A stretch of DNA of 33,946 nt from Clostridiales bacterium. Its GTDB lineage: Bacteria > Bacillota > Dehalobacteriia > UBA4068. This document shows, piece by piece, positions 4,225 through 30,543 of this stretch (within the stretch, counting starts at the first letter, position 1; each line of letters begins with the position of its first letter). The notes beneath the pieces are model-generated. The model was not told where the DNA came from, searched no databases, and was given only the letters and a program-made list of their open reading frames with translations. Made by a program: the position numbers and the translations under genes. The DNA lies in NCBI GenBank assembly GCA_009783415.1, contig WRHF01000006.1:1-33946 (forward strand), given 5' to 3'.

Positions 4225-4891
4225 TTCCCCACACCACCTTTAGATATTTTGGTTCTTTTGGATTGATTTCGATTTTTTCCCGGATACGCCGGATATGTAC
4301 AGTCACGGTGCTCCCCCCGCCCAAGGAGTCCTCTCCCCAGACCCGCTCATAGATTTCGTCAATAGAAAATACCCGTCCCGGATGGCGGATCAAAAGTTGT
4401 AGAATCTTATACTCCAAAGGTGTCAAGCGGATATCTTCCCCATCCAGGTTAACCGTCTTTTGACTGTCGTTTAAGGAAAGTCCGCCAACCGTATAGACAC
4501 CCTCGCTCTTTGCTCCCGGAATGCTGCCCAAAGAAGTATAGCGGCGCAGCTGGCTCTTGACCCTGGCAATCAGTTCCAGAGGATTAAAGGGCTTGGTAAC
4601 ATAATCATCCGCCCCCAGATTAAGCCCCATAATTTTATCGGTATCCTCGCTTTTGGCCGAAAGCATAATGATAGGAATATTGCGCTTTTGCCGGATTTCC
4701 CTAGTAGCCAGGTGTCCATCCATTCGGGGCATCATCACATCCATAATGATCAAATGGATCTCCTGTTCCTCCAGAAGAGAAATGGCCTCCCTGCCATCAT
4801 GGGCCAAATATGTTGAATAACCCTCATTCTGCAAATAAACCGCAATAGCCGCCGCAATTTCCCTATCATCGTCGCAAATCAAAATATTCAT
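4181..4891 (-). CDS. OmpR/PhoB-family response regulator
   Basis: 236 residues. The receiver domain has acidic residues D7 and D8, phospho-acceptor D51 (IIMDVMMPRMDG) and K100 (YVTKPF). A winged-helix DNA-binding domain follows from about 135 to 230 (LTPLEYKILQLL, then TVTVHIRRIREKI). The ATG at 4891 has GAGGAG 11 nt upstream. A GTG at 4903 in the same frame sits directly on that site and is rejected. It is the first main gene of the two-component operon, and an 11-bp direct repeat upstream of the promoter suggests autoregulation. Confidence 0.93.
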   Translation of the reverse strand: MNILICDDDREIAAAIAVYLQNEGYSTYLAHDGREAISLLEEQEIHLIIMDVMMPRMDGHLATREIRQKRNIPIIMLSAKSEDTDKIMGLNLGADDYVTKPFNPLELIARVKSQLRRYTSLGSIPGAKSEGVYTVGGLSLNDSQKTVNLDGEDIRLTPLEYKILQLLIRHPGRVFSIDEIYERVWGEDSLGGGSTVTVHIRRIREKIEINPKEPKYLKVVWGIGYKIEKLDSPASC

Positions 4892-4942
4892 AAACCCCAC
4901 CACTCCTCATATTTCAGATGTGGATATAGGAATAGCTGATTT

Positions 4943-8326: not shown

Positions 8327-8345
8327 ACTTGCGGAGGTGTTGGAG

Positions 8346-9800
8346 ATGATAGCAAGCAGTGAAAATTTACTGAAAGTATTGTCTGCTACAAATCCCTGGT
8401 GGAAGACAGGAAGAATCTCAGCTGATTATGCAAAGCCGGTTAGGCGGTTTGCCTATTTTGAGGCCATGAAGCTGCTTATGCATCCGGATATACGCCGCAT
8501 AGCCCTTTTGACCGGCGCTCGCCGGATCGGCAAGACTACTATTATGTACCAAATGATTGAAGGCCTGTTAGATGCTGGTGTAGCGTCAAACCGCATTGTC
8601 TATATCTCCTTCGATCATCCCCTGTTGAAGCTATGCCGCTTTGATAAAATAGTGAATGTGTACCAACAAAACATTTATCCTGATGACGATGTCTACTATT
8701 TTTTCGATGAGATCCAGTACACAGCTGATTGGGCTGCCTGGCTTAAGACGCTCTATGATACCAACCCCCATTGCCGGGGAGTGGCCACTGGTTCTGCCAG
8801 CCCGATTTTGATTGATAAGGCTAATGAAAGCGGTGTAGGCCGCTGGAGCACCTTACAAATACCTACTTTATCATTTTATGAATACTGCGATCTGCTGGGC
8901 GTTGAAAAGCCAAAGCTTTTGCCGGAAATAAAGCCCTCCGGGCTATCTGATTTGCCGCAGCATGAGCAGACTATGCTCTTTGCAAGGCTGTCGCCGCTGC
9001 AAAGGCACCTGAACCGTTATCTTACTGTCGGCGGCTTCCCTGAGCTCGCTCTTTCCTCTGACGAGTTGTTTGCCCAGCGTGTTATGAGGGATGATGTGGT
9101 TGACAAAGTGCTCAAGCGCGATATTCCGGCTTTGTATAATATCCGCAGTATTGTCGACCTGGAAAAGATTTTCCTCTATCTTTGTTATAATTCGTCCGGC
9201 ATCATAAGCATGGAAGCTATATCACAGGAGCTTGAAGGTGTAACAAGGCCGACTGTTGAAAAGTATATCCAGTATCTTATGAGCGCGAATTTGATCTATA
9301 TCAGCAAGCCTGTTGACCTTGGCGGCAAGAAAATACTAAAATCCCAACCCAAAATCTATATTGCGGATGCAGCTATCCGTAATGCTGTCATCATGCAGGA
9401 GGATATCCTGACTAATCCCATTGAAATGGGGATTATAGCCAAAACAGCTGTCTACAAGCATGTGCGGGCTTTTTACTACCGGCTGGCAGCGAATGTAGGC
9501 TATCACCGCAATGGAGGTAAGAATCAGGAAATAGATATTGTGGTCGACTATTTAAAGAGCCGGATTTTAATTGAGGTTAAATATCGCGAAGAATACTCGA
9601 TCGGCGAAAAGGCGCTTATTGTAAGAACGGCTGAAAAAGCGGACAGCGCCTTGTTAATTACAAAACGCGCAGATGATTTCGGGCCGCTTCAAGCTTGCCC
9701 AATTGTTTACCGCATCCCGGCTTATGCCTTTTTATACCTTCTGGGACATGCCGAAAAAAACATGTATGCAAACCCCGGCGATGACCTCATAACTAAATAA
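8346..9800 (+). CDS. AAA-type ATPase with DUF4143-like C-terminal region
   Basis: 484 residues from the ATG at 8346, which has GGAGGTG at optimal spacing. A GTG at 8337 lies within that site and is rejected. The N-terminal AAA_14-type domain has the P-loop GARRIGKTT (57-65), Walker B YYFFDEIQ (117-124) and sensor region VATGSAS (146-152). A winged-helix-like middle (about 270-320, with IISMEAISQEL) is followed by a nuclease-fold-like C-terminus with KNQEIDIVVDY and ILIEVKYRE, as in DUF4143 proteins. Such ATPases are common in accessory regions, often near toxin-antitoxin genes, and their role is unknown. The gene has its own promoter. Confidence 0.85.
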   Translation: MIASSENLLKVLSATNPWWKTGRISADYAKPVRRFAYFEAMKLLMHPDIRRIALLTGARRIGKTTIMYQMIEGLLDAGVASNRIVYISFDHPLLKLCRFDKIVNVYQQNIYPDDDVYYFFDEIQYTADWAAWLKTLYDTNPHCRGVATGSASPILIDKANESGVGRWSTLQIPTLSFYEYCDLLGVEKPKLLPEIKPSGLSDLPQHEQTMLFARLSPLQRHLNRYLTVGGFPELALSSDELFAQRVMRDDVVDKVLKRDIPALYNIRSIVDLEKIFLYLCYNSSGIISMEAISQELEGVTRPTVEKYIQYLMSANLIYISKPVDLGGKKILKSQPKIYIADAAIRNAVIMQEDILTNPIEMGIIAKTAVYKHVRAFYYRLAANVGYHRNGGKNQEIDIVVDYLKSRILIEVKYREEYSIGEKALIVRTAEKADSALLITKRADDFGPLQACPIVYRIPAYAFLYLLGHAEKNMYANPGDDLITK

Positions 9801-9803
9801 TAC

Positions 9804-9831
9804 TTGAGTTTTTAAAAATATAGCGTATAAT
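9804..9831 (+). promoter_or_regulatory. Promoter of the P-loop ATPase and TPR pair
   Basis: TTGAGT (9804-9809) and TATAAT (9826-9831) are 16 bp apart, just after the preceding stop codon and 37 bp before the next start codon. Confidence 0.5.
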
Positions 9832-9867
9832 ATAACTATCAAAAGAAAAGAAGGGAGCATTCTTGTT

Positions 9868-11187
9868 ATGGTTAGTAAAGCGCCTGCTTCGGCAGATATG
9901 ACCTTGGCTGATATATCTAACCTTTTTCACCCCTTTGCTTTGACTGAAGAGCAAATGGATTTTTATCAAAAAACTGACTCTGTCAGGGGTAACGAAGGCT
10001 TTGAATTCCATGATTTATTATATCAGAACATCAAGTCGGCAGATAAAAACTCCCATCTTCTGGTGGTTGGCCATGGGGGATGCGGCAAATCGACCGAGCT
10101 GGGAATGCTGACTTTAAAGCTGAAAAATGCCGGTTTGCCCTCTATTGGCATTGAAGCCCGTGAGGATTTAGATCTTAATAATTTCAGTCATATCGATATT
10201 TTTATGCGGATAGTAGAATGCCTGCTAAAATATGCTGAAGATAACGGAATGCAGGTACACAAAAAATTAATATCCTCTTTTTATGAAGCGCTTGCAACAA
10301 AAACAACCATAAAATATTGGGGTAAGGAGGTACAAGCCGAAGTTGGCGCCGAAGTAGAAGCTGCTTTTTCCCTGCCTTTTATCTTAAAAATCACTTCAAA
10401 AATCTCGGCTTTTCTTAAGATTGGTTCCGGCCAAAAAGAGGAGTTAAGGAAAGAAATCGCCCCCCAAATCCCCAATATTACTAGAGCCCTAAACGCTATG
10501 ATTGATGAGATAAATGATTCGCTTGCTCCAAAGGGCAAGATTATTATTATCATCGACGGACTGGAAAAATGCCGCTCCGACAATGTCAAGGATTTGTTCA
10601 GAAATGATATCTCCTCCCTGGCCAATATCAATACCCACCTGGTGATCACTTGCCCTATCAATGTCTATCGTTCGCCTATTGCTACTATTTTGCAGGGGTA
10701 TTTCGTCAACCCTGCCATAATGCCTATGATCAAAACCCATTATCGGGGTTTCCCGGATAAGCCTTATGAAGATGGCATCCGGGTGATCAAAGAGCTGATC
10801 GCAAAAAGAGTCGATCCTTCCTATTTCGAAGACGGTGTGATAGAAAGTATTATTGCTATGGGAGGCGGGAATCTGCGGGATACTTGTTATTTGGTCAGGG
10901 AAAGCGCTTTTGTGGCTTATATGCGGGAAAGAAAAACAGTGGATATGTCCTCATTTGAACATGCCGCCAAGAAATTTGCCACCGATTTGTTTTTCCGGGC
11001 CGAATACAAATATTTTCCGGCGATCAAAGCTATATATGACGGGGATCACCGGACCCGTAATGAGGCCGATTTATCCGAACTGCTATATGCCGGAGTTGTT
11101 TTTGAATATAACGGGGAACATTGGCTTGATTTGCACCCCCTGATCCGGAATTATATCAAAAATCATCCGGGGGTGCTGGATGATTAA
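9868..11187 (+). CDS. STAND/AAA-like P-loop ATPase
   Basis: 439 residues. The P-loop GHGGCGKST is at 68-76, Walker B IIIIIDG at 225-231, and a HLVITCP sensor strand follows at 257-263. Between them lies a hydrophobic, Ala/Val-rich stretch (about 155-190). The C-terminal part is helical and ends in a winged-helix-like DLHPLIRNYI. The domain order recalls STAND or KAP-type signalling ATPases, but no exact family is recognised. A GGGAG site precedes the ATG by about 10 nt. It overlaps the next gene, a TPR protein, by 8 nt, so the two are made together. The pair may act as a split sensor-ATPase. Confidence 0.75.
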   Translation: MVSKAPASADMTLADISNLFHPFALTEEQMDFYQKTDSVRGNEGFEFHDLLYQNIKSADKNSHLLVVGHGGCGKSTELGMLTLKLKNAGLPSIGIEAREDLDLNNFSHIDIFMRIVECLLKYAEDNGMQVHKKLISSFYEALATKTTIKYWGKEVQAEVGAEVEAAFSLPFILKITSKISAFLKIGSGQKEELRKEIAPQIPNITRALNAMIDEINDSLAPKGKIIIIIDGLEKCRSDNVKDLFRNDISSLANINTHLVITCPINVYRSPIATILQGYFVNPAIMPMIKTHYRGFPDKPYEDGIRVIKELIAKRVDPSYFEDGVIESIIAMGGGNLRDTCYLVRESAFVAYMRERKTVDMSSFEHAAKKFATDLFFRAEYKYFPAIKAIYDGDHRTRNEADLSELLYAGVVFEYNGEHWLDLHPLIRNYIKNHPGVLDD

Positions 11188-12847
11188 TAAATCAGGTTAT
11201 GATGAAAAAGAATTCCATTATCTATATACCCGGCTTCTTCACCAAAAAATCAATGCCTTTTTCTGCGTTACCAGCAATTCGATCCTCCTGCAAAGGGAAA
11301 TAGCGGCAGAGATCCAAGACCTTTTTCCTGCCGGCGAGGTCCAGGTCATTGATTTTAAAAATATCGGCAATGATTTTCTCTTTACCTCCCAAGCCCTGAA
11401 GGAAATGCTGGCCCCCGGCGTACGGATTCTATTTTTGGTAAATTTTCAGCTGGCAGGCGGTGATCTGCCGGATGAAGACTTTTTGCAAATCGTCAACCTG
11501 AGCCGGGACAACCTGGCGGAAATGCCCCAAGTATTTGTCTTTATGATGCCCCTCTATTTCCGGATCAAAATAGCCCGCAAGGCTCCGGATTTCAATTCCT
11601 TTTTCCAATATCATGCAGATTTTACCGTCCCGACAGAATCTGTAGAGCCAATCCAAAAAATATCTGATGTGCCATATAGCCAGGCTGATAAAGAGCTGCT
11701 GGAGTATTATTTGGAAAAATATGGTAATTTGAAGGACTATAACAGCCGCCGGGCCTTTGAAATTGTCCTGAAGATACTTGATTTAAACAAATCATTACGG
11801 ATCCTGCATTTTGCTGAACTAAACCGCTTTTTTGCCGAGTTTAAAAGGCTCCTGCAAAAATACGAAAATGAACTTGACGATTTTACTTTTGAAATAGCCG
11901 CTGTCTTTGCCAGCCAAGGGGATTATGACAGGGCTTTGCTGTTTTATGAGAAGGCTTTGGCTATTAAGGAAAAAGTGCTGGGCAAGGAGCATCCCCGTAC
12001 CGCCGCTACCTATAACAATATGGCGGGAGTTTATCAATACCAAGGGGATTATGATAAGGCTTTGCTGTTTTATGAAAAGGCTTTGGCTATTAAAGAAAAA
12101 GTGCTGGGCAAGGAGCATCCCTCTACCGCTGATACCTATAACAATATGGCGATAGTTTATCAAGACCAAGGGGATTATGACAAGGCTTTGCTGTTTTTTG
12201 AGAAGGCTTTGGCTATTAGGGAAAAAGTGCTGGGCAAGGGGCATCCCTATACCACCGCTACCTATAACAATATGGCGATAGTTTATCGAGACCAAGGGGA
12301 TTATAACAAGGCTTTGCTGTTTTTTGAGAAGGATTTGGCTATTAGTGAAAAAGTGCTGGGCAAGGAGCATCCCTCTACCGCTGATACCTATAACAATATG
12401 GCGATAGTTTATCAAGACCAAGGGGATTATAACAAGGCGTTGCTGTTTTATGAGAAGGATTTGGCTATTAGTGAAAAAGTACTGAGCAAGGAGCATCCCT
12501 CTACCGCCACTACCTATAACAATATGGCGGGAGTTTATCAAAACCAAGGAGATTATGACAAGGCTTTGCTGTTTTATGAGAAGGCTTTGGCTATTAGGGG
12601 AAAAGTGCTGGGCAAGGAGCATCCCTCTACCGCCGATACCTATAACAATATGGCGGTAGTTTATCAAGCCCAAGGGGATTATGACAAGGCTTTGGAATTA
12701 TATATTCTAGCATACAAAGTATGGCTTAGATATGGAGCAAACCATCCGTCTACAGCAACAATTCTTAACAATCTGCGGCAGGCGTATCTTGAAGCCGGCG
12801 GAAAATCAGAAAGCTTTACTGCCTGGCTGTCGGAACAGCTTAATTAA
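11180..12847 (+). CDS. TPR protein with kinesin-light-chain-like 42-residue repeats
   Basis: 555 residues. Residues 1-230 hold an unrecognised domain that reads like a degenerate NTPase fold without a P-loop (VQVIDFKNI, then VRILFLVNFQL). From about 248 to 540 there are seven copies of a 42-residue TPR (GDYDKALLFYEKAL, then KVLGKEHPST, then TYNNMA), the TPR_12 or kinesin-light-chain style. The last copy is diverged and capped by LNNLRQAYLEAGG. TPR stacks of this kind bind peptides or partner proteins. The start overlaps the ATPase gene, which points to a common complex. Near-identity of the repeats indicates recent expansion. Confidence 0.88.
   Translation: MINKSGYDEKEFHYLYTRLLHQKINAFFCVTSNSILLQREIAAEIQDLFPAGEVQVIDFKNIGNDFLFTSQALKEMLAPGVRILFLVNFQLAGGDLPDEDFLQIVNLSRDNLAEMPQVFVFMMPLYFRIKIARKAPDFNSFFQYHADFTVPTESVEPIQKISDVPYSQADKELLEYYLEKYGNLKDYNSRRAFEIVLKILDLNKSLRILHFAELNRFFAEFKRLLQKYENELDDFTFEIAAVFASQGDYDRALLFYEKALAIKEKVLGKEHPRTAATYNNMAGVYQYQGDYDKALLFYEKALAIKEKVLGKEHPSTADTYNNMAIVYQDQGDYDKALLFFEKALAIREKVLGKGHPYTTATYNNMAIVYRDQGDYNKALLFFEKDLAISEKVLGKEHPSTADTYNNMAIVYQDQGDYNKALLFYEKDLAISEKVLSKEHPSTATTYNNMAGVYQNQGDYDKALLFYEKALAIRGKVLGKEHPSTADTYNNMAVVYQAQGDYDKALELYILAYKVWLRYGANHPSTATILNNLRQAYLEAGGKSESFTAWLSEQLN
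11921..12700 (+). repeat. 126-bp tandem DNA repeats inside the TPR gene
   Basis: The GATTAT of each GDY motif recurs at 11921, 12047, 12173, 12299, 12425, 12551 and 12677, exactly 126 bp apart. Six full units are closely similar at DNA level, including synonymous positions, so the array should gain or lose whole TPRs by recombination without changing the frame. Confidence 0.9.
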
Positions 12848-17079: not shown

Positions 17080-18306
17080 ATGAACGCTGTCGGTATCGAC
17101 ATCTCCAAAGGCAAGTGCATGGTTGCAGCCATGCGACCCTTTGGGGAAGTAACCCTCACTCCACATGAAGTCACTCATTCCTATGCCAATCTTGAGAAGC
17201 TAGGCTACGATATTATCGGGCTTGGTGAGAACACAAGGGTCATCATGGAGGCCACGGGGCGCTACCATGAACCCGTGGCGGCAGTTCTCCATGAAATGGG
17301 CATCTACGTCTGTGTCCTCAATCCTATTGTTATCAAACAGAGTGGCGCTGGCTCCGTCCGAAAGGTCAAAAGCGATAAGAAAGATGCTCTCAAAATCGCA
17401 AAGTACGGGATCGACAATTGGACGACATTACGCCAATACACACCTACGGATGCCGTAAGACAACAACTTAAACTGTTCAGCCGCCAGTACAACCTGTACA
17501 TGAAAACATCGGTGGCACTGCAAAACAACCTTATTGCACTACTGGACAAGACTTTTCCAGGCGCCAATACCATTTTTGATAGCCCAACCCGCGCCGACGG
17601 CCATCAAAAATGGGTAGATTTTATTACATCTTTTTGGCATTGTGATTGCATTTGCCGCGTCAGTCAAAATGCCTTCACAGAGCGATACCAAAAGTGGTGT
17701 AAACGCAAGGGATATAACTTTTCCGAATCAAAAGCAGAGGATGTGTATATCTCTAGTGCCGGGCATTTTCCTACTCTGCCGAAGAATGCCAACACCAAGC
17801 TGTTGATTACCTCTGCTGCTGCCGAACTCTCCGCCGTTAGAGAGGGTTTGATGACAATTAAGGCTGAGGTGATCCGTCTGGCTAAGCAGCTCCCCGAGTA
17901 TGACATCGTGATTGGCATGTATGGTGTTGGCGAGATAACAGGGTCGCAGCTTATGGCTGAACTGGGGGATGTGAGACGCTTTAATAACCGCAAGTCAATC
18001 GTTGCTTTCGCAGGTATTGATCCGGAAGTCAGCCAGTCCGGCTCTTACCAGAGAGTAAGCAATCCTTCTAGCAAGCGCGGCTCGCCGCATCTTCGTAAAA
18101 CCCTGTTCCAAGTGATGGATACTTACCTGAAACGATCTCCGGAAGATGAGCCTGTGTATCAATTTCTTGATAAAAAACGCGCCGAGGGTAAGCCTTATTA
18201 CGTTTACATGACTGCTGCTGCCAATAAGTTCCTAAGGATCTACTATGCCCGGGTTAAAGAGCATCTGAATAAGCATTATCCCGAGCAAGATCCTCCGGAA
18301 TTATAG
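17080..18306 (+). CDS. IS110-family DEDD transposase (recombinase)
   Basis: 408 residues, full length for the family. The RuvC-like DEDD domain shows D7 (GIDISK), E57 (MEATGRYHEP), D99 and D102 (SDKKDA). The C-terminal Transposase_20 domain has GVGEITGSQLMAELGDV, then SIVAFAGIDP and a serine-rich SGSYQRVSNPSS segment, where the nucleophilic serine of the family lies. It recombines DNA guided by a structured RNA, without terminal inverted repeats. AAGGAGG precedes the ATG. The reading frame is intact, so the element may be active. Confidence 0.96.
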   Translation: MNAVGIDISKGKCMVAAMRPFGEVTLTPHEVTHSYANLEKLGYDIIGLGENTRVIMEATGRYHEPVAAVLHEMGIYVCVLNPIVIKQSGAGSVRKVKSDKKDALKIAKYGIDNWTTLRQYTPTDAVRQQLKLFSRQYNLYMKTSVALQNNLIALLDKTFPGANTIFDSPTRADGHQKWVDFITSFWHCDCICRVSQNAFTERYQKWCKRKGYNFSESKAEDVYISSAGHFPTLPKNANTKLLITSAAAELSAVREGLMTIKAEVIRLAKQLPEYDIVIGMYGVGEITGSQLMAELGDVRRFNNRKSIVAFAGIDPEVSQSGSYQRVSNPSSKRGSPHLRKTLFQVMDTYLKRSPEDEPVYQFLDKKRAEGKPYYVYMTAAANKFLRIYYARVKEHLNKHYPEQDPPEL

Positions 18307-18604: not shown

Positions 18605-18675
18605 TTTTTTTACGCCGACGCCGAAAAGGTGAACGAGCGCAGCGAGTGAGGCTTTTCGGCGGCGGCGTAAAAAAA
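18605..18675. repeat. Palindromic element at the end of the broken ATPase gene
   Basis: Arms of about 24 bp (18605-18628 and 18652-18675, TACGCCGACGCCGAAAAG and complement) pair with one mismatch around a GAACGAGCGCAGCGAGTGAG interior. It ends in A/T runs on both sides and could end transcription. The last codons of the truncated ATPase frame read through it. Confidence 0.75.
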
Positions 18676-19218
18676 TTTTGCCGGAACCGCCTGCTTTGCT
18701 ATACCCATTTTTAAAGAATAAAAGAAATAAAAAATAATTAAAATATTTTTCAAAAAAGGCTTGACTTTTCTTTGCAGGACTCTTACATTAAGAACAGGTG
18801 AACCCCAAGCATAGTCATAAAAAATATAAGGCTGGGCTTCACCTTGACTCTTTTCTGTACTGGTTATTTTTTCGTTAATTATCCTGAATCGTTGCGCTTC
18901 ATCGGCAAAGGTAATTTGATATAATAGATTTGGAAGACTGTTTTTTGAAATTGCGGCAAGGTTTTCAACCACAAAAGTCATTGTTGCGGGTTTTTTTTCT
19001 CCAGAAGAGCCCTTGTGAAGCCATTCAGCAGCGCCACCTCCTTTACGAATATGTTCCCTCATGTCCGAAGGCGCACTTCTGAGCAACTCTATTGCTTCAA
19101 TAAAATTGGATTTTCCGCTCCCGTTTCTACCAATGATAACATTCAGTGGTTGTAATTCAATTTTTTCAGAATCTGGCCCAAAGCTTAAGAAATTTTTAAG
19201 TTCTACCGATTTTATCAT
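18610..19218 (-). pseudogene. Truncated AAA-type ATPase (RecF/SMC-like head)
   Basis: The frame starts at an ATG at 19218 behind AAAGGAGGAAG. Residues 1-150 are a good ATPase head: MIKSVELKNFLSFG, then the P-loop GRNGSGKSN, then a region like AAA_15/AAA_21 proteins. After about residue 150 the sequence changes to low-complexity IIFYFFYS, then crosses the palindrome at 18605-18675 and stops at 202 residues. Relatives are usually near 350-450 residues and have the signature and Walker B motifs, which are missing here. It is therefore a 3'-truncated gene, probably cut by the palindrome or by arrival of the IS. Function is probably lost. Confidence 0.7.
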
Positions 19219-19327
19219 GAGGCTTCCTCCTTTAGAAAAATACTCACGGATAAACATATTCTAGCATAATTCATTAATTCTGACAATAGCCCTGCAAATA
19301 CTCACCTAATTTTGAATCATAGTTAAG

Positions 19328-21474: not shown

Positions 21475-22362
21475 TCACTGATTTTTTGATACAGCAACAT
21501 AAACCTGCGATAAATAGTGGGATATATCTTTAACACACACTTCGTCATGTAAATAAACAGAGAAAACCGGACCGGACACGGTCAGGTTTTTTTCTTCTAT
21601 ATATGCCGTCATTCTTGCAGGTAAATCGCCGAAATGGCCATAATAACCATAGGCAAAACCGGTTAAATAATTTCCGGCTTTCGAGCTGCGGTTCCCGGTT
21701 GGATCTAATGATATAAAATAATCGGGATTTCCCGGCGCCTTCAAAAACCTGTCCCAACTCTCGTGCATACCACCGATGGGAAAACTAAGATTTATCCGTA
21801 AATTCAGAGCCTCATTGCAAAAATTCATAAGCGGCTTATAAAAATCTTCATCTTCATTCCAATTATTGCCTGAACCAAGAATATATGGAGTGCCTTCTCT
21901 TTTCAACACAGCAATCTTGGTCACATCAACATATCCATTCTCATTTGCCGTATTTTTATTATTTTTGTCCTTGGCTATTTCTCCATCCGCCGCCTTGTAT
22001 CCCTCAAGCACCTTTATCCCATAGCTGATCAATTCGCGCCTGGTATTGATTATGGAATAGCATTCGCGTAGTTTGTGCAATTCCATGTCTATCTGCTTTT
22101 CCCTTTGCTCGATCAAAGCCAATATTTTTTCCGGAGTGCGTTCACTATCCGCCTTTCTGATTTCCTTCAAGGGAATATTCAAATTACTTAAAACAGAAAT
22201 AAATTTTATGGTTACCATCTGGTCAGGGGAATAATAGCGGTAATTCGTTTTCATGTCACGTTTTACAGGGAAAAACAGTCCGGACTCCTCCCAATGACGC
22301 AGTGTCGTTTGACTGATACCGGATAATTTGGAAAATTCTTTTATTGATAGCAACTCTTTCAT
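21475..22362 (-). CDS. MerR-family regulator with a C-terminal sensing domain
   Basis: 295 residues. The first 70 form a MerR winged helix (LLSIKEFSKLSGISQTTLRH, then YRYYSPDQM). A coiled-coil dimer helix follows (about 88-125). Residues from about 140 to 295 form a separate domain with an aromatic core (NYLTGFAYGYYGHFGDLP, then ISHYLSQVYVAV) that resembles GyrI-like effector-binding domains, so a small hydrophobic ligand is likely. It ends convergent with the oxidoreductase, 24 bp away. A GAAAGGA site lies about 12 nt before the ATG. Targets are unknown. Confidence 0.85.
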   Translation of the reverse strand: MKELLSIKEFSKLSGISQTTLRHWEESGLFFPVKRDMKTNYRYYSPDQMVTIKFISVLSNLNIPLKEIRKADSERTPEKILALIEQREKQIDMELHKLRECYSIINTRRELISYGIKVLEGYKAADGEIAKDKNNKNTANENGYVDVTKIAVLKREGTPYILGSGNNWNEDEDFYKPLMNFCNEALNLRINLSFPIGGMHESWDRFLKAPGNPDYFISLDPTGNRSSKAGNYLTGFAYGYYGHFGDLPARMTAYIEEKNLTVSGPVFSVYLHDEVCVKDISHYLSQVYVAVSKNQ

Positions 22363-22492: not shown

Positions 22493-23173
22493 TTACCGCC
22501 TTTTCTCCAAAAGCAATCTAAGGCAAAACGCGCATCCGATCATTATCACAAACCATATAGCCATATTGGTGGTATCGCCTGTATTGGGACTATCCGATGA
22601 CGGTTTATTCCGGTGGGAGGGATTGGAAAGGCCGGGATCAGGCGAATCCGGAATATTCAGGGCCGGTGGGATATATGTGTTTGTAATACTGTATCCGTCC
22701 ACTTTTTTTCTGTATCCGTAAACCGTATCTTCATCAACAGTGTAAACGATTTCCTTATTGTAACTATCATATTTCGGCAAGCTGAAGTTCCATTGCCAGC
22801 CATCAGCAGCAGATACAATCTTTTGGATCACAACCGCGTTGCCGTTTTTAACGAGCACCGTAATGTTTTTTGGCTGGTTCACTGCCGGGTTTTTTCCGTG
22901 TTCCCATTTCTTCATGCCTTCGATTTTTATAGTGTTTGAGCTAAAAGAGGTATCATCCTTTTTATCTGTGTTTGATGTCGGATCCTTTGTACCCGGTTTC
23001 GTTGGATCGGATTTTTTTTCTTGCTGTGTGCCGCTGAAGAGATTCTCCTTGTTTACTAAGCCGCGCCAGGCATAACTGCTTGCCATAAAAATTGATAGTA
23101 TCATTAGAAAACTTAACGCAAAGTAAATAATTTTAACGGAAACAATATGTTTTTTATTTTCAACTTGCTTCAA
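22493..23173 (-). CDS. Cna-B domain surface protein with sortase-like tail
   Basis: 226 residues. The N-terminus has a membrane segment (VKIIYFALSFLMILSIFMAS) followed by SYAWRGLVNKENLFSG, like the SipW-type signal of TasA/CalY proteins. A Lys/Thr/Asp-rich linker leads to a Cna-B domain (about 83-165: IKIEGMKKWEHG, then IVYTVDED, then ITNTY). The C-terminus has SPNTGD, a hydrophobic helix and LLLEKRR, which is a sorting signal with SPNTG in place of LPXTG. It is likely anchored to the wall by a sortase not in this window. The start is a TTG at 23173, as in-frame stops lie just upstream. Confidence 0.82.
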   Translation of the reverse strand: MKQVENKKHIVSVKIIYFALSFLMILSIFMASSYAWRGLVNKENLFSGTQQEKKSDPTKPGTKDPTSNTDKKDDTSFSSNTIKIEGMKKWEHGKNPAVNQPKNITVLVKNGNAVVIQKIVSAADGWQWNFSLPKYDSYNKEIVYTVDEDTVYGYRKKVDGYSITNTYIPPALNIPDSPDPGLSNPSHRNKPSSDSPNTGDTTNMAIWFVIMIGCAFCLRLLLEKRR

Positions 23174-23442: not shown

Positions 23443-25896
23443 TTAATTGACATTGATCCACATAGCCGGACGGATCCAGCGGTTGGAGGTCGGAGTAGTG
23501 GAAGCCGGCGCTCCGGGTGTAGTTGTACGGATGACATAATTTGTATTACGGGCGGTACGGGTCCAAAAACGTCCGTTTCCTCCGGTTACCGTTCTGTTCG
23601 GGTCGTTGGCAGTGCTGTTGGGAGCAGGGTTGGCGCCAATGAATCCCGGGCTGAAATATAGTTCGGTAGCGGAAAGGGCAAAGCAAGTCTTCTCTCCCAC
23701 ACCCTCGTCCACATAGGACCAGGCGCTCATGTCCTGCGTATTCCTGGCATTAGCGGTCGAACTGATTTGGATACCTGCCGGGAAAACTGCCGGTCTTGCT
23801 ACTTTCTGCAAGTCATTCAATCTCCGGGCATAGAAACTTCTGCATTCGGTGTCAAGCCGGGAACTGGGGTAGAATTTTTGGCTTGCCGAGGAATTAAAGG
23901 GAGTCCGGCTTTCAACACTTGTGGTTGTGATCAGGGTATCGCCGTTTTCTTCAACCTTGAGAACTCTCCAAAGTATCCCGTCAGCCATGAAGATTTTGCC
24001 GAGATCATCGGTTGTACCAGTAAGACCGTCAAGTATGTCGACTAAGTCTTTATCGGGAACAACATACACAAGGGCCGTAACCCTGTTGCCTTCTGCATCC
24101 TCTGCTGTTACAATGATCCTGTCAACTGTTTCGTTGGCCGCGATCTGGATGAGTCCGGTATTCGGGTCAATGGTTGTGGTTGCTTTAAAGTTTCTCAGCG
24201 TACCTACCTCGTCGTCGTCATTCGCATAATCATAGCTATCGGACACCATAGACCAGGTAACGGCTACAGGAATGCCTTCTATTTTGGTCGTTGCCGTTAA
24301 TTGCAGCGTTCTGTTGTTTTTCAAGTCCATAATCTTTTTATCCGGACCGATAACCCATTCGGCATAGTTTTTCTCTTCGAGCCTGGCCATTGCAATGATC
24401 AAATCATTGATAGCGTCTTTGACCTCTTCCAGAGTTGCGGTATCGTCTTCCAAAACAAATTCTCCGCCGGAAATTGCCCCGGGAAGGTCTGCTCTGCTCC
24501 AACTATCCGCAGTATAATCGTCTTCATTCAAAGATTTGGCCTGGTTGAGCAAATCTTCAAGCTGATCTTTCATTGCTTTTTGAGTTACCATTGTACCGGT
24601 CACCATATCATAGTAGAAAATCTCATCGGTTTCATGCAACGCGTCTTCGGTACTCATCAATTTGCCGTTTCCGCCTTCCAGCTTATCGCCATAATAGAAA
24701 TCCCCGCCATCGGCTTTAACATAGTATTTGCCGTTGATCTTGATAATCGGTTTTGCCGGTGTTTCCCAAGGCTTCATGCTACCGCCGCCGCCGGTAAGAT
24801 CTCCGTACAGCTGGCCATCAACAGGAGATACTTTTTGGAAGACATTTTGTTCCAGATCAGCCCACCACCAGGCTTGACTATCCGGATCATAAACGGCTGC
24901 TTTGTCATCTCCGCCGCCGGGTTTCCTGCTCGGGCCTCCCCAGCTGCTTTTACCGGTTCTGCTGCCGGTTTCCGGATCTATTTCGTGCCAGATATTGGGG
25001 TAATCCGGATCTTCTTCATAATACTTTCCGTCTTCACCGGGTTTTACGGGAATTGAGGGATTGGTGGGATCGGCAGGGCCGTCTTCGTCCAAATCAAATA
25101 CATAATTCGGCGGGGTAATGACATTACCGTCCTCATCGCATTCGATCCAGATATGTTCTTTATCCGTAGGATACCAGAATTTTCCATCCCCATCTTCAAC
25201 AGCATTGCTGGATGTACCCACAATAACCAGGTAGGAAATAGTCTGCGTCACGCCCCATTTGTCGGTGACTGTGCCGATCATAACAGCCGAACCTTTACTG
25301 ATTACGGAAATATTACCGCCGGCGTCTATATCTGCCACATCTGTATGCAGCGACTCCCATTCCACTTTGTTATCAGGGTTGTCCAGGTTCCAGGTTTCCA
25401 AATCTTTGCTTATTATGTTCCCATCATCATTTTGGTCGATATTGATCTCAAGAGCTAAAGGGGTAGTCTCGTCAGTAACTTTGGCGATCACCAGCTTGCC
25501 ATCAGGGATCCTGTATCCGGCAGCTCCGCTTGGGTCATAGATCTGATAATTGAGGAAGGCGGAATCGCCAACCATGGTGAATAAGGCGATACTGGCGACA
25601 CCTGTGTTTGCCGCATCCGCAACAACGGTCGCGTTACCGCCGGATACACGCACACTGGCGATCTCAGAGTGGTTGGATCGCGCTCTGTAAACACCGGAAT
25701 AGGTATTCAGCTCTGAACCCAGAGCAATTTTGTTGTAACTGTTTTGGCAGACAAAATCTTTTTCCACATCATTGTTGCTGCCAAGGGTAAAGGTCAGTCC
25801 AACTATAACAGCACTGATCAGGATTGCTGCCGTTAGTGTTGCAGCAATTACACGTCCTTTGGATGTGCTGAAAAATCTTTGAAATTTATTCATCAT
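23443..25896 (-). CDS. Large secreted repeat protein with FIVAR- and DUF6273-like regions
   Basis: 817 residues. A signal or membrane anchor lies at about 14-38 (VIAATLTAAILISAVIVG). Residues of about 45-230 contain Ig-like segments (VEWESLHTDVADIDAGG). A linker of about 245-400 is rich in Gly, Pro and acidic residues. A FIVAR-like helical unit (about 450-520: DYTADSWSRADLPGAI, then LEEVKDAINDLI) and another Ig-like unit follow. The C-terminus (about 650-817: GILWRVLKVEENGDTLI, then NRWIRPAMWINV) resembles DUF6273, a lectin-like fold. It is probably exported. The ATG has GAGGAG at 6 nt. It is 21 bp downstream of the TasA/Big protein gene, so the two are one operon. Confidence 0.78.
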   Translation of the reverse strand: MMNKFQRFFSTSKGRVIAATLTAAILISAVIVGLTFTLGSNNDVEKDFVCQNSYNKIALGSELNTYSGVYRARSNHSEIASVRVSGGNATVVADAANTGVASIALFTMVGDSAFLNYQIYDPSGAAGYRIPDGKLVIAKVTDETTPLALEINIDQNDDGNIISKDLETWNLDNPDNKVEWESLHTDVADIDAGGNISVISKGSAVMIGTVTDKWGVTQTISYLVIVGTSSNAVEDGDGKFWYPTDKEHIWIECDEDGNVITPPNYVFDLDEDGPADPTNPSIPVKPGEDGKYYEEDPDYPNIWHEIDPETGSRTGKSSWGGPSRKPGGGDDKAAVYDPDSQAWWWADLEQNVFQKVSPVDGQLYGDLTGGGGSMKPWETPAKPIIKINGKYYVKADGGDFYYGDKLEGGNGKLMSTEDALHETDEIFYYDMVTGTMVTQKAMKDQLEDLLNQAKSLNEDDYTADSWSRADLPGAISGGEFVLEDDTATLEEVKDAINDLIIAMARLEEKNYAEWVIGPDKKIMDLKNNRTLQLTATTKIEGIPVAVTWSMVSDSYDYANDDDEVGTLRNFKATTTIDPNTGLIQIAANETVDRIIVTAEDAEGNRVTALVYVVPDKDLVDILDGLTGTTDDLGKIFMADGILWRVLKVEENGDTLITTTSVESRTPFNSSASQKFYPSSRLDTECRSFYARRLNDLQKVARPAVFPAGIQISSTANARNTQDMSAWSYVDEGVGEKTCFALSATELYFSPGFIGANPAPNSTANDPNRTVTGGNGRFWTRTARNTNYVIRTTTPGAPASTTPTSNRWIRPAMWINVN

Positions 25897-25917: not shown

Positions 25918-27807
25918 TTAAAAGAATCCCATAAACGAGACACGCAGGGTAATATCTTCACTGATCTGGGTTTTAGCCCCGATGGTTTGCGCCAGCTTGA
26001 TCGTGACGTCTACATAACTTATGCTGGGTTGGGCAGCGTCTTTATTCATCGCAGCCAGTATAGCCGTGCTGGCGGGAAGGAATTTGACGATGATGCAGTC
26101 CTCGCCGCTATAATCAGCGCCATTGAGACGGCCATAAAGATCTATACCGGAACCAACCACTATAGAGCCGGACCCGCTGGGTAAACCATCTATGCTATAT
26201 ATGCTTACCCCGGAAGTATCATCCAGGAAAATACTGAGGGGAATATAGCCGTAACATTGTTCCAAGCTGCCTCTGTCATCAATATTAAACTCAGGCTTTC
26301 CGGTTGTAAAGGTCTCTTGGGAAACCAGGGAACTGACAAATGGGGCAGGATTGGCTGCATCCCAGGGATTCAAAAATGCATCTGTTTTAGTTGCCAGCAG
26401 ACCGGGAGCTACCGTAATGGTGATGGAGTCGGATTTGGCGCCTACGGTTACGGTAATGACAGCATCTCCTTCCCCGACAGCGGTGATTTCGCCGGTGTCC
26501 GGGTCAACTGTAGCCACGGATTCATCACTTGAACTCCAGACAGGTCTATCGGTGCTGTCTGCAGGATCAATGGTGATCAATGGGGTATAGGTATCATCAA
26601 CTTCCATCGTTTTGTTTCCGCCCTCAATGGTGACGTTTTCGGCAGGAATAAACTCCGGGGAAACCGTGATGGTAATGGAATCGGTTTTATCGCCAACTGT
26701 AACGGTGATAACAGCTTCGCCTTCGGCAACGGCAGTGATTTTGCCGGTATCGGGATCAACTGTAGCAACAGATTCATTATCGGAGCTCCACTGAGGTTTA
26801 TCGGTGCTATTGGCAGGCTCAATGGTAATAGAAGGTGTAAGAGTATCGCCTACAGCCATCGTTTTGTCCCCGCCGCTGATGGTAACGCTTTCCGCCGGGA
26901 CAGGGGGGGTTGCTGCTTCTAAAGCTGCGTCCAAAATTTCTTTGCCCTTATCATTAGCGCTGTCTTTGATTACGCTGAAATCTTTTTCATCGGCAAAGTC
27001 AAAGATGACATTGATCGCATAATAATATTCGTCCCAATCGTCATCCTCACCGAGCCCTTGAGGTCCTTCCACCATTTTCAGCAGAAGCCCGCTGGCTTCA
27101 CCCGGGGCAATTGCCTGAGCCCAATAGATATATCCGTCTTCCGGATCGATCACCCAGTAAGGGCCGGCTTCTCCGTTCAGTTCATTTTTCCAGTATTCAT
27201 AGGTCATAACCGTGCCGACAGGCGTTTTCATCAAGCCAAGATCTGCAAGTTCTGCAGCAGATGAGGCATTGTACCCGCTATAATCAGTGATGTCAGAATA
27301 AGCGTCGCCGTTATATGTACCATCTTCCGCAACTGCGCTGGCCGGGGCGGGCTTATAGACTTTTGAGCCGCCAAGGGTCCACTGCCAATAATCATGGGCG
27401 GTTTTATCCGGAGAGGGGTTTGTGCCGTAGGCAATGACCGTTTCGCCTAATCCGGAAGGATCCGGAGCGTCTTTGTGGACGAGCCAGCCATCAGAAGGTG
27501 TTCTTGTGGCATCGGCATCTCCTACGATCACTATGCCGTTAAGCTCCATAAACTCCTCGAGCTTGATCCTGGCATAAAGATTTGTTTTGCCTTTATTTTC
27601 CACATAAACCTCTTTGCCGGGCTGTCCCGGTTCATAATCATCACGGCCTACGCCGCCGTCATCAACGGTTTTTTTATCTTTAAAAATATTGAGAGCCGAT
27701 TGACCGCCAAAATAGGCAAATGTTCCCGTAATAAGCAATGCTAAAATCAGGATCACTGACGCGGTAACCGCCGTCGTCTTTTTGAAATTTCGCTTTTTTG
27801 TTTGCAT
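25918..27807 (-). CDS. TasA/CalY-like matrix protein with two Big2 Ig-like domains
   Basis: 629 residues. The signal peptide (about 12-35: VTASVILILALLITGTFAYF) followed by GGQSALNIF is of the SipW-processed type. Residues of about 60-270 are a TasA/BsaA-like domain (KEVYVENKGKTNLYARIKLE, then DYWQWTLGG). Two Big2 repeats follow (about 300-383 and 387-470: AVGDTLTPSITIEP, then SVATVDPDTG, then AVITVTVGD). The C-terminal part is unassigned. It is likely a matrix or fibre protein cut by the peptidase encoded upstream. The AAGGAG site before the ATG is good. Confidence 0.85.
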   Translation of the reverse strand: MQTKKRNFKKTTAVTASVILILALLITGTFAYFGGQSALNIFKDKKTVDDGGVGRDDYEPGQPGKEVYVENKGKTNLYARIKLEEFMELNGIVIVGDADATRTPSDGWLVHKDAPDPSGLGETVIAYGTNPSPDKTAHDYWQWTLGGSKVYKPAPASAVAEDGTYNGDAYSDITDYSGYNASSAAELADLGLMKTPVGTVMTYEYWKNELNGEAGPYWVIDPEDGYIYWAQAIAPGEASGLLLKMVEGPQGLGEDDDWDEYYYAINVIFDFADEKDFSVIKDSANDKGKEILDAALEAATPPVPAESVTISGGDKTMAVGDTLTPSITIEPANSTDKPQWSSDNESVATVDPDTGKITAVAEGEAVITVTVGDKTDSITITVSPEFIPAENVTIEGGNKTMEVDDTYTPLITIDPADSTDRPVWSSSDESVATVDPDTGEITAVGEGDAVITVTVGAKSDSITITVAPGLLATKTDAFLNPWDAANPAPFVSSLVSQETFTTGKPEFNIDDRGSLEQCYGYIPLSIFLDDTSGVSIYSIDGLPSGSGSIVVGSGIDLYGRLNGADYSGEDCIIVKFLPASTAILAAMNKDAAQPSISYVDVTIKLAQTIGAKTQISEDITLRVSFMGFF

Positions 27808-27921: not shown

Positions 27922-28839
27922 CTAGAATGATTTGATAATATCAAGGACTTGTTTTGCTTCGCCTGAAGCCGGCGGTGCATTTCCGGTAATGTCCGGATCG
28001 ACCGAATTTGCGTTATCCGTCCACATAGGCAGATCGTCTGCATCGACAACGTCCATGATAACGTCGATTATGTAGCAGTAATCATAGTCCTTCAGTTTGC
28101 TTTGAATTGCAGTTACGCTGCTGAGCAACAGTCCGGTTGCCTCCCCGCCTTTTAGGGGTTGAGACCAGTAAGCCCAACCGTCGGCATCGTAAATCCAGCC
28201 TATGTATGCTCTCTGCCCTCTTGCAGTCATTTTTAGGTACTCGTCGATGCAGATAATACCCCCAACCGGGGTTTGCTTTATCCCTAATTCTTCTCTTTCC
28301 AAGCGGGTCAGGCTGCCATAATCAGTAGTATCGTCAACATAAGTTCCTTTGTTGTATGAGGCATATTCGCCGACCATTTTAGAAGCGGGCATATACCATT
28401 TTTGGCCGCCCAAAGTCCAACTGAAATAGTCATGGAACTTATCGCCATTATTATTTGCCTTCATGCAATCATTAAAGATACAGGAGCTATCAGGATGGGA
28501 AGGACAGTGGGTAAACCAGTCTGTTTCAGCGATTGTCAGCGGACGGGTATTGGTCGATAAATCAAGGAATTCATTAAATTTGACCCGGACATACATCAGG
28601 GAATCAGGATCGCCGGTGTTCTCTACATAAACATCCTTCTGTCCGGTATTGGGGTCAAAGTCGTCGTGCAAGACGGCCGGCGGCGGTTCATCGGGAGGGG
28701 TCGTTTTGCTGCCGGTAAAGATATTTTCCACACTTACACTGGCATAATAGGCAAAGGTTCCCACGAGCAAAATAGCCACGATGAACACACCCGCTGCAAT
28801 TGCTGATACTTTTTTGTTCAGGTTTCTTTTTAACTTCAT
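27922..28839 (-). CDS. TasA/CalY-like SipW-dependent matrix protein
   Basis: 305 residues. The N-terminus has a SipW-type signal (VSAIAAGVFIVAILLVGTFA, then YYASVSVENIFTG). The rest is a single TasA/BsaA-like beta domain (KDVYVENTGDPDSLMYVRV, then DYFSWTLGGQKWYMP, then GGEATGLLLSSV), paralogous to the first 270 residues of the 629-residue protein. Proteins of this family form biofilm fibres or surface coats and depend on a dedicated signal peptidase. That enzyme is encoded 200 bp upstream. AAGGAGG lies 7 nt before the ATG. Confidence 0.88.
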   Translation of the reverse strand: MKLKRNLNKKVSAIAAGVFIVAILLVGTFAYYASVSVENIFTGSKTTPPDEPPPAVLHDDFDPNTGQKDVYVENTGDPDSLMYVRVKFNEFLDLSTNTRPLTIAETDWFTHCPSHPDSSCIFNDCMKANNNGDKFHDYFSWTLGGQKWYMPASKMVGEYASYNKGTYVDDTTDYGSLTRLEREELGIKQTPVGGIICIDEYLKMTARGQRAYIGWIYDADGWAYWSQPLKGGEATGLLLSSVTAIQSKLKDYDYCYIIDVIMDVVDADDLPMWTDNANSVDPDITGNAPPASGEAKQVLDIIKSF

Positions 28840-29037: not shown

Positions 29038-30186
29038 TTAGGCTTTGGATAAATCACGTTTGGGCTGTTCTTGTTTTTTGATACCAAAAAAGACTTGCAG
29101 GGTAAATGATAAGAGTAGTAATAAGCCCAGGAAAATCATGGCAAAAATAATCTTTTCATTTAAATTAGACAAGGCTTTTCCCATACCGGGTACAGTAAAA
29201 ACGACTTTTCCGATTACATTTGCTGCGTCAACTATATCTTTGTCGGGCTGGGGGTTGTTCACACCCTGAGTTTGAAATCCTCTTGTTTCTTTTTCGTTAT
29301 AATTCTCGTAAATGCCGATAATTTTATGGGTAACGCTGGTATTTGAGCTTTTCATAAAAGTAATATTATCGCCGATTTGCAGTTTATCCGGATCGATCTT
29401 GCGGGTTATGACAAGGGAACCGACGGGTATCTCTTTTTGCATTGAGCCGCTAAGAACGGTAAAATAGGAATATCCCAGGATATTGCGGGGAGCATCACCG
29501 GTTTTTCCTGAAGCAACAAATGCCAGAAATACGGCGCCTATGATAGCGACGTAAAACAATATGCTAGAAGCGACCCTTAAGGCGGAACGCTTTCTCTTCG
29601 GTTTTGTGCCATTCATTTGCGGGCTTGCCGGTACCGGATCCGCAGGAATAGCAAATTTCTCCGGAACAACAATCTCTTCCGGGAGAACGGTCTCTCCCGG
29701 AAGAGCAATTTCCTCAGTAACAATAAGAGGCTTGTTGTCAGTGTTTTTATTGTTAGCCTCCGCGCCTCCTATGCCAAGGATAATATCTTGAATTTGCTGC
29801 TGCATTTGTTCGATCAAACGGATCGATTCGCTTTTTTTGGCTTCGGCTATATTTGCCTGTTCGTTCGCATTACGGATAATAAGATCAGCTTCTTGTTTGG
29901 CTTGATTTGTGATTTGCGCTGCAATTTTTCGAGCATCGATCAGTGCTTGCCCGATATGAGAAGCATCTGCACTTGCAGAGTTTGCTTTTAAACGCCTAAT
30001 CTCAGCTTCGAGTTGTTCATTTTCCAGCCTGAGCTTTGTATATTTTGATCCTAAATACTGATAACCGGTATTCAGATTGCTAAATTCTCCTGAAATCAAG
30101 TCCAGATATTCATCTACCTGGGTCTTGTTATATCCTTTATTATCTATATTAAAAGGTAGTTTTACTTTCGCGTTTTTAGCCTGCAT
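29038..30186 (-). CDS. SipW-type signal peptidase I fused to an N-terminal DivIVA-like coiled coil
   Basis: 382 residues. Residues 8-68 look like the DivIVA N-terminal domain (FNIDNKGYNKTQVDEYLDLI, then a coiled coil), followed by more coiled coil to about 135 and a Pro/Glu linker. A membrane helix (about 206-226) precedes the peptidase: SGSM places the nucleophile at S248, VTHKII places H287 where bacterial type I enzymes have Lys, so it is of the SipW/ER type. TQGVNNPQPDKD carries the acidic residue. A second helix lies near the C-terminus. It should process the TasA-like precursors encoded downstream. The ATG at 30186 fits the AGGTG site better than a GTG at 30198. Confidence 0.88.
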   Translation of the reverse strand: MQAKNAKVKLPFNIDNKGYNKTQVDEYLDLISGEFSNLNTGYQYLGSKYTKLRLENEQLEAEIRRLKANSASADASHIGQALIDARKIAAQITNQAKQEADLIIRNANEQANIAEAKKSESIRLIEQMQQQIQDIILGIGGAEANNKNTDNKPLIVTEEIALPGETVLPEEIVVPEKFAIPADPVPASPQMNGTKPKRKRSALRVASSILFYVAIIGAVFLAFVASGKTGDAPRNILGYSYFTVLSGSMQKEIPVGSLVITRKIDPDKLQIGDNITFMKSSNTSVTHKIIGIYENYNEKETRGFQTQGVNNPQPDKDIVDAANVIGKVVFTVPGMGKALSNLNEKIIFAMIFLGLLLLLSFTLQVFFGIKKQEQPKRDLSKA

Positions 30187-30515
30187 GTTTTTTATCACCT
30201 CATTTTGCTATAAAAATAGTGTTTTTAATAAACAATTGAGACAATAACATATAGTTAATACCATAAAAGGATAAGGTATGTGGTAACAAGAAAGTCAACC
30301 CTTTTTTTCATAAATTTGATTTCATAAAAAAAGCAAAATATTACTGCCTCAAATCAGCATGGTAACGTGGTTATATTAAGTCCAATAGTTAGTATTTATA
30401 CCTAAATTATTTGTATCTTATTGGAAATACTCAAAACCAAAACTTTAAGCATTTTAAAGTGGTATTTTATGTAAATAAAGTTAGGCTTTTGTCAGGATCC
30501 AAGAAGAAAAACCGC

Positions 30516-30543
30516 AAAAAAAAGCTGGGGTTAAGCCCCAGCT
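30516..30543 (-). terminator. Terminator of the SPFH gene
   Basis: On the minus strand AGCTGGGG pairs with CCCCAGCT around a 5-nt loop (30523-30543) and is followed by seven T. It lies 60 bp past the SPFH stop codon. The remaining 30187-30515 region is AT-rich and should hold the promoter of the peptidase operon, but no clear -35/-10 pair is visible. Confidence 0.9.

Follow-up and report, generated by a model that had tools for sequence, protein, structure and literature searches.

Where, and by what means, bacteria place the machinery that releases their matrix fibres is largely an open question, and one gene of a Clostridiales bacterium raises it in a specific form: what does a SipW-type signal peptidase do with about 200 extra residues at its N-terminus? 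The gene lies on contig WRHF01000006.1, of which the whole stretch of 33,946 nucleotides that was analysed is here called the window. An earlier note on this DNA had read the extra residues as a DivIVA-like region with a coiled coil that senses curved membrane and thereby places the secretion of matrix protein at a defined cell site. DivIVA/GpsB scaffolds as such are already known. SipW-bsaA operons are known as well (PMC7395162), and the new content is the conserved pairing of DivIVA with SipW, together with an N-terminal motif of SipW. A published description of the pairing was not found in a literature search, which covered open-access papers only and is weak evidence of absence.

The signal peptidase and its gene run

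The fusion gene (29038..30186, on the minus strand like all features of this region given below) starts with an ATG at 30186, has its stop at 29038, and encodes 382 aa in a single clean frame that includes the linker and has no internal stops. A Shine-Dalgarno-like GAGGTGAT, recognised from the sequence, lies 7 nt 5' of the ATG (30194..30201). An intrinsic terminator (30523..30543) is found between the fusion operon and the upstream Band_7 gene, and as the terminator splits off that gene, a separate transcript probably begins with the fusion.

Residues 207-357 (29116..29568) match the model of SipW/ER-type signal peptidases, TIGR02228, with 89.2 bits (cut-off 51.85), and the Bacillus SipW equivalog NF046067 with 92.1 bits, which is under its cut-off of 190. 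In an alignment with human SEC11A, S248 (29443..29445), H287 (29326..29328) and D315 (29242..29244) fall on the Ser, the His and the second Asp, which form the triad S56-H96-D122 of that protein; S248 and H287 are thus intact, as the earlier note had said, and D315 is invariant in the peptidase alignment. At the 'GD' box the fusion and its sister have Val309 instead of the Asp, and L069 has Thr, which is a feature of the subfamily. Hydropathy indicates two membrane helices, with peaks at residues 201-229 (the helix itself at about 201-225, 29512..29586) and 341-370 (29077..29166), and with KPKRKR just before the first, so that, with the topology taken from charge, one expects the DivIVA part in the cytosol and the catalytic part on the outer side. 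The family models and the evidence from neighbouring genomes agree on a SipW-type signal peptidase with about 200 extra N-terminal residues, and this part of the earlier note stands.

The two genes that follow the fusion probably encode BsaA/TasA-type matrix proteins that SipW exports, as judged from their sequences. The first (27922..28839, 305 aa, leader ...ILLVGTFAYYASVSVENIFTGSK) is BsaA-like with 39.1 bits for TIGR04090, missing the cut-off of 60, and resembles the protein directly 3' of a second fusion, L153, that is described below (42% over 59 residues, pair E 2e-9). The second (25918..27807, leader ...LLITGTFAYFGG) has a BsaA-like N-terminus, with 32.6 bits likewise short of the TIGR04090 cut-off of 60, and two Big_2 domains (86.6 bits). 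The SipW-type leaders of these two candidate substrates contain GTFAYY and GTFAYF. In the same gene run there are an 817-aa DUF6273 protein according to Pfam, probably secreted (23443..25896), and a Cna_B protein with an LPXTG-like C-terminus (22493..23173), and then follows a MerR-family regulator (21475..22362), homologues of which lie close to SipW genes in other genomes (G651, G633, G430, G434, G497 and G794; weaker or partial in G426 and G435). Substrate-like neighbours with SipW-type leaders are seen in the window and also at the linked loci described below, and in the split pair of L069 the neighbouring proteins even exceed the TIGR04090 cut-off of 60 (64.7 and 72.2 bits).

With SipW of B. 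subtilis, which goes with TasA and TapA, and with the sipW-bsaABCRSD operon of C. perfringens (PMC7395162), the system shares an ER-type peptidase that has Ser-His-Asp and two helices across the membrane, and the position of sipW as the first gene before genes of secreted matrix-type proteins. It differs from them in that the nearby regulator is of the MerR type, and in that those SipWs have been described with neither a DivIVA domain nor a DivIVA partner, whereas the SipW of the window has the roughly 200 additional cytosolic residues. A second kind of cytosolic SipW add-on was met in this analysis in several Bacillota genomes, in which a response-regulator receiver, and not DivIVA, precedes the SipW domain (L057:5397-6452, L058:3361-5379, L058:8824-10602, L059:5000-7006, L062:5013-6122 and L063:6231-8015); three of these receiver matches are over the Pfam cut-off and the others are weaker.

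Elsewhere in the window, three adjacent genes at positions 8337-12847 resemble an NTPase-TPR defence-type locus; their products are an AAA ATPase (PADLOC candidate PDC-S01), a KAP/NPHP3-like NTPase and a protein that has seven TPR units, all nearly identical. A truncated OLD/HEC-01A-like AAA ATPase of 215 aa (18610-19257), which matches the first part of the models only, lies near an IS110-like transposase (17080-18306).

The N-terminal region matches the DivIVA family

Residues 12-130 of the fusion match the DivIVA family PF05103 with 35.1 bits (E 1.5e-8, gathering score 28), and both models that the earlier note had named for a check, DivIVA and signal peptidase (TIGR02228), are hence over their cut-offs. 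A rival reading is a generic oligomerisation tag, a coiled coil whose likeness to DivIVA would be compositional. The coiled coil does supply part of the score, as residues 41-146 alone have DivIVA as the best Pfam match with 29.8 bits, and the model of the N-terminal DivI1A motif, TIGR03544, is matched by the fusion with 19.5 bits only, below the cut-off of 22 (22.3 for the linked gene of the sister). Residues 1-40, however, contain no long coiled coil, and on their own they pick DivIVA, and no other family, out of the 24,736 models of Pfam (17.3 bits), while shuffled versions of either fragment (1-40 or 41-146) have zero Pfam matches, which argues that the region is not merely any coiled coil. 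Moreover, the loop signature F...GY...V is common to the linked genes described below, 13 of 15 of which are over the Pfam cut-off. A generic coil is thus a very improbable explanation, and at sequence level the outcome that the earlier note had named as speaking against its reading, nothing but a generic coiled coil, was not what was found, the first 40 residues being DivIVA-specific.

The loop segment (residues 12-38, FNIDNKGYNKTQVDEYLDLI..., 30073..30153) carries this signature and is followed by a heptad coiled coil, and in an alignment of 17 DivIVA/GpsB rows (the fusion and 16 others) F12, G18 and V24 are invariant and Y19 is nearly so. The GpsB equivalog NF010725 is matched with 21.8 bits, far under its cut-off of 91. 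An AlphaFold2 model of residues 1-160 (mean pLDDT 84) has a short extended N-terminal loop and two helices, residues 21-70 (29977..30126), the a/d positions of which are 80% hydrophobic in one register by heptad count, and residues 75-146 (29749..29964), which correspond to the C-terminal coiled coil of DivIVA according to the fragment Pfam scan. The full-length model is of low confidence (pLDDT 65). Structure prediction, also proposed with the earlier note, thus gives the loop and the helices with fair confidence. A Foldseek search of the PDB with the N-terminal monomer, which is modelled as long isolated helices, returned no meaningful match and hence no DivIVA; this could be listed for the generic coil, but it is put down here to a limit in matching such helices and weighs neither way. 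At the level of sequence, the PDB matches of the region are Wag31 and GpsB, weakly (E 0.3-0.6). In comparison with B. subtilis DivIVA (PF05103; PDB 2wuj), the N-terminal loop with the GY...V motif and the long coiled coils after it are shared, whereas here the domain is fused to a transmembrane enzyme, is encoded in a SipW operon rather than alongside genes for cell division, and has Asn16 in the position of the lipid-inserting Phe17.

Between the DivIVA-type region and the first transmembrane helix there is an E/P/V-rich linker that is probably disordered (residues 147-200, 29587..29748). Its coding sequence holds a perfect 13-nt inverted repeat (29674-29705); that this palindrome is a repeated mobile element is unsupported, as it occurs in a single copy within the window.

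Split pairs in relatives and two fusions

In the closest relative, G004 (WRKD01000200.1, a MAG named 'Bacillota bacterium', 51% identity), SipW has no DivIVA domain, and a separate DivIVA gene of 174 aa (PF05103 36.5 bits) lies 31 bases upstream of sipW. This pair follows a flagellar operon with flgK-, flgL- and fliW-like genes. A SipW profile made from the proteins of the window, G004 and L069 picked up a SipW subfamily in the relatives of G426 and G651. When the flanks were read with DivIVA profiles, a DivIVA-like gene was found directly 5' of sipW, or slightly overlapping it, at 15 loci in 12 other genomes (L066, which is the G004 locus, L081, L087, L140, L144, L147, L149, L150, L151, L152, L155, L156, L157, L158 and L180). 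PF05103 scored highest at L155 (47.8 bits), L156 (46.7) and L144 (45.2), and the two linked genes under the cut-off are those of L069/L081 (21.9 bits) and L079/L087 (27.1 bits).

The pairing emerged only from this reading of neighbours and from the SipW profile. The full protein, searched against the order, the class and a sample of the phylum, gave no second DivIVA-SipW fusion, scans with the single protein found no relative in the genome contigs and none in the viral contigs, and in about 78 other SipW-bearing genomes of the phylum there was no PF05103 near SipW among the matches listed. L078 (G426 contig C65), L083 and L084 had been candidates for SipW fusions and were found not to be such. 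In the phylum sample 323 of 399 genomes have a PF05103 match over the cut-off, and in the window's own order (35 genomes) it is reached only by the fusion and by the sipW-adjacent gene of G004. The detectable DivIVA-type protein of this order is therefore the one tied to SipW, with the provision that the genome of the window is 85% complete and a canonical DivIVA could sit in the missing part.

The DivIVA-linked SipW homologue of L079:2798-3727 (= L087:10800-11768) has Ala and Arg in the catalytic Ser and His positions (TAAM, LLTREV) and is, by its sequence, probably a pseudo-enzyme, retained with a matrix-type protein and a DivIVA-like gene as neighbours. In L069 the DivIVA-like ORF shares 158 bases (4766-4923) with sipW in different frames, both homologue-like over the overlap, which is either a real coding overlap or a frame error of the MAG. 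In two genomes of the window's family, DivIVA-like proteins under the Pfam cut-off are encoded beside Tad-pilus-like genes (L085:3189-3896, L086:2469-3413), and this position suggests that there may be DivIVA-type scaffolds at other surface machines too.

The survey of domain order thus changed the picture of the earlier note to some extent: the fusion exists but is rare (2 loci), and the usual form is two adjacent genes. The second fusion, L153 (genome G435), begins with MTPEFDVEKRGYNKQQVDEYIDYLL..., continues with a short proline-containing stretch and then the SipW domain, and is shorter than that of the window; TIGR02228 is matched with 52.7 bits, and DivI1A with 18.1 bits, below the cut-off of 22. 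A maximum-likelihood tree built from 72 SipW domains places the protein of the window as sister of five split-pair SipWs (two from G651 and one each from G803, G004 and G633; support 94/87), and L153 with the split-pair SipW of L151 (support 97/80). The tips of L151 and L153 are long, and the bootstrap had not yet stabilised fully. If the tree is accepted as it stands, these separate positions mean that the fusion arose at least twice, each time from split pairs. Such repeated fusion, a classic hint at joint work of two proteins, speaks strongly for the DivIVA/GpsB-type scaffold and SipW acting together.

As the fusion of the window comes from one MAG, and in its close relatives the two genes have about 30 nt between them or overlap slightly, one may ask whether two adjacent genes were joined by an assembly or sequencing error in which a stop codon was lost. 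This is even less probable than a generic coil: the frame is clean over 382 codons including the linker, an independent fusion is known in L153, and the motif with which split SipWs start is missing here, for which the loss of more than a stop codon would be needed.

A candidate docking motif

The N-terminal element of the split-pair SipWs resembles E[L/I/F]N[R/L]E[F/Y]. Instances are SLEEINREF (G004), TLEEINREF (G426) and SIEEINQEF (G432), as well as TINDFNREY, TVNDFNREY, DVNDFNREY and TLLEINRDF, and the motif occurs twice in one protein of G651 (LLDELNREF, SLEELNREF) and twice in one of G633 (SLNELNLEF, SIDELNLEF). It is present in 13 of 15 DivIVA-linked SipWs (with a relaxed match in L151), in 2 of 55 unlinked ones and in neither of the two fused ones. 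The Fisher p of about 2e-10 for linked against unlinked is descriptive only, because the pattern was written after the first set had been seen and the rows are related. The later sample, a small one, brought a single linked locus, where the motif is present, and some twenty unlinked SipWs, of which one carries it. Exceptions occur on both sides, with L143 and L181 having the motif and no upstream DivIVA gene, and the linked L087 and L140 having no good motif.

GpsB, a relative of DivIVA, binds to membrane PBPs through short motifs of their cytosolic N-termini (PMC6335420), which makes docking the natural reading of the SipW motif. By this analogy, its presence in split-pair SipWs and absence from the fusions suggest that the former may dock onto DivIVA and that here a covalent link would take the place of docking. 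In the proposed model, the GpsB adaptor and the SipW system would have in common that a DivIVA-family N-terminal domain organises membrane enzymes via their short cytosolic N-termini. They differ in the motifs, which are of the SRxxR(R/K) type in GpsB partners (PMC6335420), and in that domain and enzyme form one chain in the protein of the window.

Possible function as a scaffold

The fusion is probably a SipW peptidase with a built-in cytosolic DivIVA/GpsB-family scaffold, and as such a conserved module of two genes in fused form. The N-terminal coiled coils would dimerise or multimerise in the cytoplasm below the membrane and would hold several SipW catalytic domains, which are outside the membrane, together, probably along with other envelope machinery. 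The operon's BsaA/TasA-like matrix proteins would be processed at the site of this clustering. In the split form, SipW probably attaches to its DivIVA partner by way of the short N-terminal motif, and in the fused form the covalent linker would do the same. It counts against such a scaffold that the majority of SipWs function without any DivIVA.

How a defined cell site could be chosen is a matter of its own. DivIVA of B. subtilis accumulates at negatively curved membrane (PMC8872289), and the protein of the window retains the N-terminal loop and the coiled coil, so that the DivIVA domain might sense such membrane at poles and septa and fix matrix secretion there, as the earlier note had it. 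In B. subtilis it is Phe17 that inserts into the membrane (PMC3924036), but here this residue is Asn16, and in the SipW-linked homologues the position is mostly polar or charged, Met or Pro; L147 and L149 alone have Phe there, and L152 has Leu. The protein of the window is thus unlikely to sense curvature in the known way, most of its SipW-linked homologues lack a hydrophobic tip as well, and the fusion already has transmembrane helices of its own as an anchor. The claim that the domain senses curved membrane therefore finds no support, and targeting by curvature is rather unlikely overall. Actinobacterial DivIVA relies on other residues (PMC8872289), so that polar targeting would be compatible with Asn16; place-specific clustering by other means may occur, and matrix protein might be secreted at a defined site of the cell.

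As DivIVA of B. subtilis cross-links to SecA and DivIVA of Listeria is needed for SecA2-dependent secretion (PMC3924036), it is a serious alternative that the DivIVA domain serves to station SipW at SecA or at the translocon, where matrix preproteins would be cut on emergence. The export of BsaA in C. perfringens indeed needs SipW (PMC7395162), but the conserved linkage is to sipW and not to sec genes, and such a coupling is improbable, somewhat more so than targeting by curvature.

Returning to the scaffold, the short motif, its candidate binding partner and the fusion protein make the question directly testable. It can be proposed, as a tentative generalisation from sequence that falls a little short of an even chance, that some Bacillota have a dedicated DivIVA-family scaffold for SipW, attached by a new docking motif or by fusion, that spatially organises the secretion of the biofilm matrix. 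If this is true, the role of a 'cytosolic adaptor', known for GpsB with cell-wall synthases, would extend to a signal peptidase.
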